DNA of 64,000 nt, from positions 620,001 to 684,000 of the forward strand of contig JAUPFP010000058.1 in the NCBI GenBank assembly GCA_036925085.1, read 5' to 3'. Each line of letters begins with the position of its first letter. Position 1 is the first letter of the stretch. The position numbers were made by a program, and so were the translations under genes. The DNA comes from Brachycybe producta (Eukaryota > Arthropoda > Diplopoda > Playtdesmida > Andrognathidae). The notes under the pieces are model-generated. The model was not told the origin of the DNA, searched no databases, and saw only the letters and a program-made list of their open reading frames with translations. Shown here in pieces: positions 37,101-43,100 of the stretch.

Positions 37101-40100
37101 TTACAATAATCAGTAGCCCCATTTATCTTCCCTAATTTAGAATTCCTAGACCTTTTTAGTTAGAATTTATACATGAAATGATAGATTTTATGTACAAATG
37201 CAGTAATAGATTTTACCATTTGTATTGTAAATTATTAAATAGTGGCCTATTGGATAGTTGTTAAATCATGTTTAGATTATTATTTATTCATGTTATAAGT
37301 TCCTTTCCACGTTAGATTATTCTTTTTAAATTTGCATTTGTATAGCTGCCTCACCGTAAGATAAAGTTTGTGACGTCAGAGGGGTTGACAACAAATTTAG
37401 GATTCTGTGATTCAGTCTGATACAAAAGTGATAATAGCAAACGTTTACAAACAGTTTAAACAAAAAGGTTTATTGCTACTTTCTATTAGACAAAATGACA
37501 CAAGCCTAAATTTTTTTTTGGATGAACACCTCTGACGTCACAAGCCTTTATCTTACAGTGAGACAACTATAAGAGCAATGTATGTATTGTATGCGTTTGC
37601 ATTATTAAATATATGGAACATATTGAACATATACATAATTGGGATTTAATATTGGATTTTTTTAAATGGTTTCGAGTAACTTGTGGTCAAGATGCAAATA
37701 AGAACAGCACACAGTTGGAAAAAGGAAAAAAAAAATAGTATCAATGACAAGAGAAAAATAAAAGATAACGGTGGATGGATATGTTGAAAGTGTTTTTTGT
37801 ACAAGCGTTTGGAAAGACAGAAAACGTGTGAGTTGTCAAAATGTCCACATGTTTTTTTTTTTTAAAAAAGAGTAGAGAGAAAGAAAAAATCATATCAAAC
37901 AGAAAATTAAACAATAAAAAATTAAAATACAAATAAAACACACACACACACCATACTTAAGTCGTATATTTAGAACACTGCAAACATTCTCGAGGAAAAG
38001 GAGGGGGTGTCTAATTTTTGAGGGTGTTTTTATAAACATACATATGTAACAAAAAAAAAAACAATCACAAATAAGGTAGAGAAATAAAAATCAACACTTA
38101 TTTAATTTCAAAAAAGCAAAATAAAAAAAAGAACATACAAGATTGTGCATGAGTTTCAAACCACCTGTTAATTTAACATGAAATATCATTATAATTAAGG
38201 CAAAAAGAATTACGCTTTTTTATGTAATTTGTTTTAAACATCGGAATGTAACGAGGGTAAGGAAATCATAAATAAGACAAAAAGGCTAGAATTAGAAGCT
38301 AGAATTCTTCTAGAGATCCATACAAATAGCCTTGGGTTGTATGTTAAATCTCTGAGCCCTTCTCCTCTAATTAAGTCAGTCTTGGTTTGATTGCAAAAAG
38401 CGTAAGTCTTTTTTACTTGTTAATTATAAATTTTCAATTCATGAGATTTGTTGTGATTTTTTTTAATTAAGACTAATTTTTGAATTTTATATTTAGTGCA
38501 ATATTAAATTAGTATTTACACAAGAGTCTTGTTTATGCATTTGGTTCTTCTCTACTTTTTTAATTCATTATTTAAATTTAACTGCAGTTAGTTGTCTTAT
38601 TTAAAATAAACAACGTTAAACTGAAAATAGCCAATGTGATTGTTGAACACTTCCTTAGGGTTATATAAAATTTACGTATTTTTTTTTCTCTTGCGCAAAA
38701 TATTTTCAAAAAAAATGTTAAAAACTAGACTAACAAAAATTTTCGTGTCATTTATTGTAGTTCATTTTTTTTTATCAACTTTTTGTGAAAAAGAATTTCA
38801 AACTATAATTTATGTTATCATCATCACTTGCAATTCTAGTTTCTAACAACAAAACCGTTTCCATAATAATATTGTAAATCTTTGCCTGAACTGCTTGGAT
38901 AGATTTTACAAACACAAACTCACAGTCATTTAACTGCAATTCACTATATTTACACGAACAAGTGGTTAAACACGTCAAAACTAAGCAAAATAAAATCATT
39001 TAATCACGATTAAAATGATTACGTTTGTATAATTTTGAAAAATGTAACTGCAGTTAACTTTAATAACGAGAATCAGAGTACATTAGAAAAAAATATCTAT
39101 TAATATCATAAAACTCTTGCATGTATTGTATCCCTACTATGTCATAAAAATTGACAAATCTTGAAATGAATTGAGTCAATTGAAATTCCTTCAAATTAAC
39201 AAGATGGTTTAATACAATATAAACACCTTGTATGAGAGTGATTCCATGCAATTTGTTGATAATTTAAATTTTGTTTAGGTATTTTTTTTAACAAAAATTA
39301 TTATTTAGTTTATAGATTTTTGATTCCCTTCAAATAAGACACCCCCTTCTTTTAATTCAAAAGTTTAATTATCTCAAAATTCCTTCTTAATTAATAATAT
39401 AGGGGAAGTTTCTTTTTAAAAAAAAAAAATTCATCTCTTTTGGTGGGAGAGAAAAGTCTGCAATTTTTTTTGGGGGGTTTGTTAGTGAGGTTACCTTAAA
39501 AAGTTGTACTCCAATGACAGCGAACATGAATTGCAGTAGATAAGTGACCAACATGATGTTTCCAATTGTTTTGATGGCTACAAGCACGCATTTGACTACG
39601 TACTAGAAGAGGATATATATACATAACATAACAGGGGAACGAAAAAGTTGTTTTGGTCTTTTGAACTTTTAGAGGAGGACATTTTTTGGTCGCAAGGGTT
39701 TTTGGGATATTTTTAAGGATGAGGTTTGGAGAGAGAGAGAGAGAGAGAAAAATATATATATATGGAGGAAGAGAAATCAAGAAAGAGATTCTGAGCAGAA
39801 AACAATAGAAATAACATTCTTTTGTCTTAATTGTTTTTTAAAAAATAATTAGTTAATTTTCAACCATGAAATTAAAATTCGTATTGTTGACTACTCAGTT
39901 CAATCCTGAAGAAAAAGAATAGTGAATGAGTTTAGTTAAAAAGTGGAAAAGTGCAAATCAAAAAAAGAAAGGATTATGAAATATGAGGAACAAAGATTAA
40001 ATAAAACTATGTTTCTGTATTTATTTGCCATAATAAGTAATTCACAAAGACGCAAAGTTAAATTTAAAGTCAAAATTCTCGAACGGATTTTTAAAGAAAA

Positions 40101-43100
40101 ATTCAAATCGCGACACTTTATACTTAATAATTAATTGTTTTATTATTTTAATATGGGTGTATTGTTCTTTAAATAGTGAAATATATGGCCATGTTTACAC
40201 GCAACAAAAATGTTACTTTTTTGTTACATGTAAACTTTGCAAATATGAAAATAATTGAAGAACAATTATTTTTCGCAGAACAAATTTCTCGGTTATTCCG
40301 TAAATTATTTAATTATTAAAATGATGATGATAATAATCGCCATAAATAGGCTAAAAAATAACCAAATTTTGATATTTCTAAACAGTTCGAGAAGAAGTTA
40401 TAAAGGAAAACATGGTTAAACATTTTATTAGACTTGTATTATTTTAAAGCATTGTTTCCACTTATACAGACGTATGAGTATAAATGGAAACAATGCTTTA
40501 AAACATAAAAAGTGTCAATTATTTTTATTTCAACTCTCATGGTGTAATATGCTTGGATATATTTCGAAACAATATATTTCAGTTTGAGTTTCAATCAAAC
40601 ATCACATTTAGCATCATTTCTACCATTATTATTATGTTAATAAATTTTCAAGAAACATGGCTTTTTTAATTCTCGAATTCTCGGGAAAAAAAAGTATAGA
40701 AGAAAAGGAAAAACAAAAGAAAAGGATGATTGTAAGCTTAGAGAAAACAAAAAATGTTGTATACAAAAATAAAACAAGATATGAAGTTTTATAATTTTGA
40801 ACGTAACCAACTGTCGTAACACTCGATCCTTAACCGTTCCCTACTCAAATGTTCCTATAGTAGCATTGCAATTATAATATTCTACTATCCTAACTATTTG
40901 TTTCTTATTTCCTCGAACTATTAATTTGTTTGTTTGGCCCTTTTTTGTTTGGTTTTTATATCAATCATACCTTAAAAAGTTGTACTCCAATGACTGCGAA
41001 CATGAATTGTAGTAAGCAAGTGACCAACATGATGTTTCCGATTGTTTTGATGGCTACAATCACACATTGAACTACATGCTACAAATACAAAACCATAGTA
41101 GATTTTTGGGGGTCTCTTCTACGATAAAAAAAGGAAGCTTAATTGATTCATTCATTAATTTAATTACTTTTGATTTATATAAAAAAGGAGGTATTTGAAA
41201 TGATTACTTTAAATTTTTATTTCCTCAGGAATTTTTAAGAGAGAAATTCATCCAAAACAATTTTGTTTATTTTTTTGTATTAGCTTTTTTATGAGTCATT
41301 TTAATTAAGCGGGTTTTTAAAATGTAAAATGCCTCTTCTCAAACTCTTGATTATTATTTTAGCTTTCAGAACCAAAATTAAGAGAAACTAGAAAAGTAAC
41401 TTAATCACTTAAAGAGTATTTTCATGTTAATATACTATCGTTCAAAATAAGCTTTTTTATATGCAAGTTTGAAATTAAGTTACCTTTAAGGGGTGGTGGT
41501 ACACTCTGGGATACTTTGAGGCAAAACGATGTTTCGAGACTGTATTGCGACAGTTGCAAAACATGTTTCTGTGAACACGTAAACAAAATGATGTGCAACA
41601 TTTGAAGTGTGGACGTTTTCTGAAACATGTTCTCTGCCTGAAAGATAGAGTGAAACTTGAAATTTAGGTGTTGTGGACACAGAACAATGTTTCTGGACGT
41701 TTCTCAATTTTATCCCGCAACATTGTTTCGCTACAAAGTATCCCAGTGTGTACTAGCTTTTAAGCAGATTATATTTTTGGTAATTTTTGTTCACATGAAA
41801 AGTTTATTTTGACAAATAATCAAACATCAAATTAATATGATATCGACTACCGCGTTCTAGTTTCTAAAACACATGTTGCTCTTCAGAAACAGCAAAAATA
41901 ATCAAAAAATTTGAAAATCAGAGGAGGAGGAGGAGGAGGAGAAGTGGATATATTATTATTTATAATAATGTGAGATCCTGGCTTACTAAATTGAGTTATA
42001 ACACTCACAGTCGGAACTAAATTTGAAAATATGGTATTTCCGATCCAAGCCACCAACTTAAAATATATAAGTTATATATTAGAAAAGAAGCTATCGATAA
42101 GAATAACCTTTTTTTCTTTCAATATATAAAAATAATAATTGGTTTGTGATTGCAAGTTTTTAAAAAAAAATATGTTTGTGCATTAAAATAATTCAAAAAG
42201 TATTATAAAATATATTCATAAAAAAATCAAAATAATATATAAAAAATAATGAAGCAGCAGATAGAAGGAGAAAGAGAGAAAGAAAGACAGAAATATATAC
42301 ACATAATATAATATTCGTAATGTGAAATAACAAATTGGTCTAAAGAGAGAGAGAGAGAGAGAGAGAGAGATAATATTTTCTTCTACAAAAGAAACGTTAA
42401 TTAATTGAGATAGAAATATAGATATAAAAATAGGAGAGAGAGAGAGAGGTTTTTTGATTAATTTTTTTTTAGATAATAATAATTTCGATCTTGATCATGA
42501 TAATGTAAAATTGATTTCATCAATACAAAATGAATGACATGAAGAAAATATCTGGAATTCATTACAGCACATATTTTGACTTCTACAATTACAGTAAGAT
42601 ATATTTATTTTTAATCCACATGAGGTAAATGAGAAAATTCTTTTGCTGAAAAGTAAAAGTTTTACTTGAAAGAGAGAAAGAAAGAAAGAATCCATTAATA
42701 AACGAATATGGATTCTTGTTTTGTCAAATCTCTCGAAAGAAAATATAATTATAAACTCATACAAACTCATTGAAAATCAGATCGAAACCAGAAGAAAAAA
42801 AGATTTCCGTTATTGTGCTTTCATGATGATATATTTGAAAATAAACTTTTATTTACAAAAGTTTTAAAAATATGTAAATTTACATTTCTGATGTTTAATT
42901 AGCCAACTTGAAGTGAAAAACGAAAACTTAATATTTTGAAATTTTCATAAAATATTTATTTTCAAAATTATCATCATGTGAAAATGAAAACATCTTTTTA
43001 CTCTTCTAGTTTTCAATAAACGTTGATTATCTTTTAACAAGGTGCTATTTTTGAACCTTTTATCAAAGTTTAAAATATGAAAATTTACATTTCAGATGTT

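Follow-up and report, generated by a model that had tools for sequence, protein, structure and literature searches.

Background

In vertebrates, the L-type (Cav1) calcium channel genes CACNA1C and CACNA1D contain mutually exclusive exons at three sites, namely 8/8a for segment IS6, 21/22 for IIIS2 and 31/32 for IVS3, with reported effects on dihydropyridine sensitivity, while constitutive exons encode the drug-binding segments of Cav1.2 apart from IS6 (PMC3596553). Across the human and fly Cav genes ten independent tandem-exon events affecting different exons have been counted, two of which belong to fly Ca-alpha1D and lie at exons other than the vertebrate ones (PMC9741552), and exons 15/16 of the fly gene are annotated as mutually exclusive (PMC4174434). 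Another Drosophila gene, cacophony (Cav2), carries exon pairs in IS4 and in the I-II loop, which tune activation voltage and localisation. In this paper, we analyse a 64,000-nucleotide (nt) stretch of the genome of the millipede Brachycybe producta (assembly GCA_036925085.1, contig JAUPFP010000058.1, positions 620,001 to 684,000; hereafter the window), in which an earlier note, made from the DNA alone, had pointed out a tandem duplicated and likely mutually exclusive exon pair for the S4-S5 linker and S5 of repeat III (IIIS5) in a Cav1 gene.

The two exons, A and B, resemble the pairs of CACNA1C and CACNA1D in belonging to the same gene family and in offering paired versions of one transmembrane segment, yet the site is not shared, as the vertebrate pairs lie at IS6, IIIS2 and IVS3 and A/B at the IIIS4-S5 linker and IIIS5; PMC3596553 agrees with the earlier note on the positions of the vertebrate pairs. 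Drosophila Ca-alpha1D is, like the millipede gene, an invertebrate Cav1 with tandem duplicated exons away from the three vertebrate sites, and one of its events may well be this very IIIS5 pair. The location off the vertebrate sites therefore stands, whereas the novelty that the note implied is weaker than it suggested, because the note compared vertebrates only and fly Ca-alpha1D already has two such events. Cacophony is likewise an invertebrate Cav gene with paired exons, but it is a different gene with other segments affected, and 13 of 33 residues differ in its IS4 pair versus 4 of 36 between A and B. Among the titles and abstracts listed in searches of the open literature none was found for an invertebrate Cav1 IIIS5 pair, which is weak evidence of absence, subscription papers lying outside that literature. 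The phenomenon is thus of a kind already known, i.e. ordinary ion-channel diversification, at a site that is not used in vertebrate Cav1.

A tandem exon pair in a Cav1 gene

The pair is real and well formed, and its members are probably mutually exclusive. Both exons were located by translation and splice-site reading where the earlier note had placed them; they and their neighbours are as follows.

43815..43902, minus strand: upstream exon, IIIS4, with its 5' boundary picked by eye at an AG
40971..41078, minus strand: exon A, 36 codons, IIIS4-S5 linker and IIIS5, apparently the ancestral-like version (H1, Q4, I7, C21)
39603..40970, minus strand: inter-exon intron, 1368 nt, GT-AG
39495..39602, minus strand: exon B, 36 codons, the same IIIS4-S5 linker and IIIS5 segment, apparently the derived version (Y1, K4, L7, Y21)
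34126..34178, minus strand: downstream exon, with both boundaries (AG and GT) picked by eye

Exons A and B are each 108 nt long, open (no stop) and in phase 0/0, and each is bounded by an AG acceptor (ending ..TTTGTAG in A and ..CTTCTAG in B) and a GT donor (AAG/GTATGA in A and AAG/GTAACC in B, the slash marking the boundary), so that the GT-AG sites of both copies are intact as read from the sequence, site strength lying outside that reading. The upstream exon ends with ..GGACTCAAG/GTAGAA (..AKGLK) and the downstream exon starts with CTACAG/GGGAAG (GKFNSC..), both in phase 0; inclusion of A, B, both or neither would therefore keep the reading frame. The phase and the intact splice sites asserted by the earlier note were accordingly recovered, and A and B are neighbouring homologues that match in length and phase, either of which fits the exons around them. 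Direct comparison of the two copies reveals differences at 12 of the 108 bases and 4 of the 36 residues, the latter being exactly those that had been noticed before, i.e. residues 1 (H/Y), 4 (Q/K), 7 (I/L) and 21 (C/Y).

The host gene was identified from a 496-amino-acid join of the recognisable exon pieces in the window, which scored 655 bits against Cav1.2 (the sequence of the solved structure), 415 against Cav2.1, 195 against Cav3 alpha-1H and 138 against sodium channel type 5. Since the score is highest for Cav1.2, the gene is, judged by its sequence, a Cav1 (L-type calcium channel alpha1), in which A and B are placed between the IIIS4 exon and the IIIS5-P exon. An alignment to Cav1.1 bears out the assignment of both copies to the same S4-S5 linker and S5 stretch of repeat III.

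Chance resemblance of A and B is excluded by sequence comparison. When the minus-strand frames of at least 20 amino acids in the window were compared with one another, the A/B pair was second of 23 pairs (expectation value, E, 5e-18), and the top pair, at E 1e-19, has the look of a dispersed repeat. Exon A as a DNA query against the 295-Mb genome matched B at E 7e-34, and A and B were the two places found by DNA. A protein search matched six places, these being A, B and four weak ones (33-53% identity, E 0.002-0.85), the best of which (53% identity, E 0.002) reads like a Cav2 by eye, with the other three at E 0.06-0.85. Although all such counts are lower bounds, there was no third Cav1 copy of the exon among the matches by DNA or protein, and no second Cav1 IIIS5 locus among the matches in the assembly searches. 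The Cav2-like IIIS5 exon extends further than A and B do, and a second copy of it is absent from the six protein matches.

Alike exons in unlike introns

Of 30 degenerate codons shared by A and B, 24 are identical, whereas 11.5 +/- 2.6 would be expected at saturation from the codon usage of 11 exon stretches of the Cav1 gene, a twelfth stretch having been excluded as out of frame. The 300 nt on each side of A showed no homology above shuffles to those of B: the upstream flanks scored 142 versus 125 +/- 19 for shuffles, 16% of which scored as high, and the downstream flanks 85 versus 129 +/- 18. Simulated flanks that had diverged like the synonymous sites of the exons gave mean scores of 383-568 and minima of 257-389, and a copy with 45% substitutions averages 211 with a minimum of 102, and could be missed by this test. 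An ungapped repeat of 144 nt (82%) extends 30 nt beyond the 3' ends of A and B; identity in those 30 nt is 57%, and the gapped flank comparison found nothing there. As read from these comparisons, either the duplication took in little beyond the exon itself, or the introns have a greater age than the exons suggest, in which case gene conversion or a constraint at the RNA level would keep the exons alike.

The unlike flanks also bear on the suspicion, raised by the earlier note itself, that the copies are alleles mishandled by the assembly. If two haplotypes had been set in tandem, their introns would be repeated along with the exons, which is not what the flanks of A and B look like; copies 45% substituted could escape the flank test, but alleles would be far closer than that, and the assembly matches contain no second Cav1 IIIS5 locus. 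We therefore regard such an artefact, in whose favour we found nothing, as very improbable, and prefer a tandem exon duplication within one gene.

Tests for selection on the two copies

At the four variable sites vertebrate Cav1.1 has H, Q, F and T. Because A keeps two of these letters (H, Q) and B none, A appears to be the ancestral-like copy and B the derived one. Pairwise divergence between them is 0.050 at nonsynonymous (dN) and 0.43 at synonymous (dS) sites, i.e. a dN/dS of 0.12, and 4 of the 12 changes are nonsynonymous (binomial P 0.0014, both copies taken together). We also simulated a B free of constraint at the same mutation rate, and accepted runs at matching synonymous divergence; among 1856 accepted runs, four or fewer residue differences were seen in 5, and a stop in B in 1196.

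Several points weigh in the opposite direction. A functional pair would be expected to differ at more than four residues, and the ratio test that is unbiased by gene conversion is not significant, a neutral B not being rejected at a P of 0.15 averaged over splits. The outcome of this test depends on how many of the eight synonymous changes fell on B, P being 0.41 if 2/8 did, 0.084 if 4/8 and 0.0014 if 8/8. As to whether both copies are under purifying selection, the dN/dS and the rarity of neutral runs thus have to be set against this marginal P. One copy, B (or A), might then be a fossil or rarely used exon without selection, with a single exon making the functional channels; the small number of residue changes, the departure of B from vertebrate Cav1 at positions 1 and 4, and the non-significant ratio test, which is robust to gene conversion, would all fit such a history. 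It is hard to reconcile with the open frame and the two intact splice sites, with the 5 in 1856 neutral runs and with the low dN/dS, and we consider it unlikely. Maintenance of B is likely, and not proved, from these sequence comparisons.

Probable choice between A and B

We think it probable that this is a tandem exon duplication in an invertebrate Cav1 whose copies are used as alternatives, each mRNA then carrying a single version, that of A or that of B, of the S4-S5 linker and S5 helix in repeat III. Inclusion of exactly one of A and B is the most likely outcome that we infer from their arrangement. If both were included, the protein would gain 36 in-frame residues, and if both were skipped it would lose 36. 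Alternatively, A might be constitutive and B an optional cassette, or usage of the two might be leaky. Their phase of 0/0 would allow double inclusion in frame, and in rodents a Cav1.2 variant that includes exons 21 and 22 together is described as high in neonatal heart; the same source calls this splicing aberrant and ties it to channel degradation (PMC5059693). A doubled S4-S5 linker and S5 would presumably disrupt a conserved fold as well, and optional or leaky use of this kind appears quite improbable next to the alternative use of A and B.

As to how exclusive use might be enforced, every splice outcome stays in frame, so loss of the reading frame (nonsense-mediated decay) cannot enforce the choice, and the inter-exon intron is probably too long for steric hindrance to keep both exons from being included. 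The donors GTAGAA, GTATGA and GTAACC read as U2-type and not U12, and U12-type splicing was rejected as a cause of exclusivity. With nonsense-mediated decay, steric hindrance and U2/U12 incompatibility set aside, trans-acting regulators or intron structure would be the likeliest switch. The candidate elements in the introns are the following.

40432..40513, minus strand: imperfect hairpin in the inter-exon intron, with 36-nt arms (86% complementary) and a 10-nt loop
39728..39752, minus strand: CU-rich tract, 126-150 nt upstream of B, possibly a polypyrimidine tract-binding (PTB) site
39245..39250, minus strand: single TGCATG (RBFOX-type), about 245 nt downstream of B

A PTB-like protein that binds the CU-rich tract would perhaps be the switch. 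The 500 nt preceding B contain 16 PTB-like motifs, versus 2 in those preceding A; counting against such a role, 7 of the 16 are overlapping matches in one CT repeat. The TGCATG would be expected about 0.05 times in its 500 nt and about 0.2 times over four 500-nt flanks, which makes it weak. Both kinds of motif are leads, not evidence. The hairpin has partial matches (82-87%) at two other places in the genome, for which it is a weak candidate for a splicing switch, and it is possibly a low-copy mobile element instead of a splicing structure.

The intron before A contains two further features. At 41490-41760 of the window lies a dispersed inverted-repeat element, resembling a miniature inverted-repeat transposable element, with 78 matching stretches in the genome, a count that includes the element itself and, for many sites, each of the two arms or strands. 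Local repeats with a spacing of 195-205 bp (72 nt at 89% and 52 nt at 87%) occupy 42864-43184.

Residues near the drug site

In the alignment, exon residues 1, 4, 7, 20, 21 and 24 correspond to 916, 919, 922, 935, 936 and 939 of Cav1.1 (5gjv). T935 and Q939 of Cav1.1 are the dihydropyridine contacts in IIIS5. The corresponding residues T (20) and Q (24) are identical in A and B, and the variable residue 21 (C/Y), Cav1.1 936, lies between the two contacts, next to T935 and three positions ahead of Q939. The earlier suggestion that the changes sit near the L-type drug pocket therefore holds, with the contacts themselves unchanged. Two IIIS5 residues belong to a set reported as necessary and sufficient for dihydropyridine sensitivity (PMC2362100), Table 1 of which lists T934/T938 and Q1039/Q1043 in a row whose columns look transposed. 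The Y and K of the B linker would be expected to shift the coupling of the repeat-III voltage sensor to the gate, and the change from C to Y beside the dihydropyridine contacts may modestly alter gating or drug affinity.

Other exons and side observations

To look for further pairs, we took 15 exon stretches, which make up part of the gene, and searched with them among the minus-strand frames of at least 12 amino acids in the window; one of them, IVS2, was covered by the comparison of frames of at least 20 amino acids instead. No convincing partner was found in the window for the stretches compared, which included IS6, IIIS2, IIIS3 and IVS3, and none was listed for IVS2; exon pairs of the vertebrate type are thus not seen in the window at that sensitivity. 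Of the strongest other matches, those of IIIS4 to an IS4 frame (E 4e-4) and of IIIP to a repeat-I pore frame (E 0.01) are homologous repeats by eye, and those of IS6 to two hydrophobic frames at distances of over 3 kb (E 0.003 and 0.009) were judged to be chance. In a search for relatives by scanning for the IIIS6 exon, none of 127 pattern matches in viral contigs and none of 389 in genome contigs was confirmed, with one scan each.

Upstream in non-coding DNA, the stretches 61321-61536 and 54234-54350, and likewise 57226-57502 and 55569-55874, are similar to each other (59-96% at the peptide level in short frames); from their sequence they are probably dispersed or duplicated repeats, not exons. 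Elsewhere in the assembly, a mitochondrial contig (C442, 15,359 bp) carries a COX1 frame of 511 amino acids, which reads through when translated with the invertebrate mitochondrial code but is interrupted by 4 internal AGA stops with the vertebrate one. By eye, nad4L, nad4 and nad5 lie on the cox1 strand and nad1 on the opposite one, an apparently rearranged order. Further COX1-like matches on other contigs, at C1:12698244, C17:4028538 and C17:3332128, agree with the peptide used as query at 83%, 83% and 76%, respectively, and are possibly nuclear mitochondrial insertions.

Implications

A bolder reading, which we think rather unlikely, is that A and B form an undescribed IIIS5 switch limited to some invertebrate lineage, in which the Y/K linker and the tyrosine next to the dihydropyridine pocket would confer tissue-specific gating and a natural partial drug insensitivity, while exon-limited gene conversion or RNA-level constraint would keep the exons alike between introns without detectable similarity. 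In the more modest case that both exons are expressed, one Cav1 gene would yield two channels differing at four residues, in the linker between sensor and gate and beside the dihydropyridine site. If true, this would be a clean natural experiment on the part that the linker and S5 of repeat III play in setting activation voltage, inactivation and drug block. IIIS5 would then join the Cav1 segments tuned by exon swapping, or, if the fly pair proves to be the same, the event would be shared more widely.

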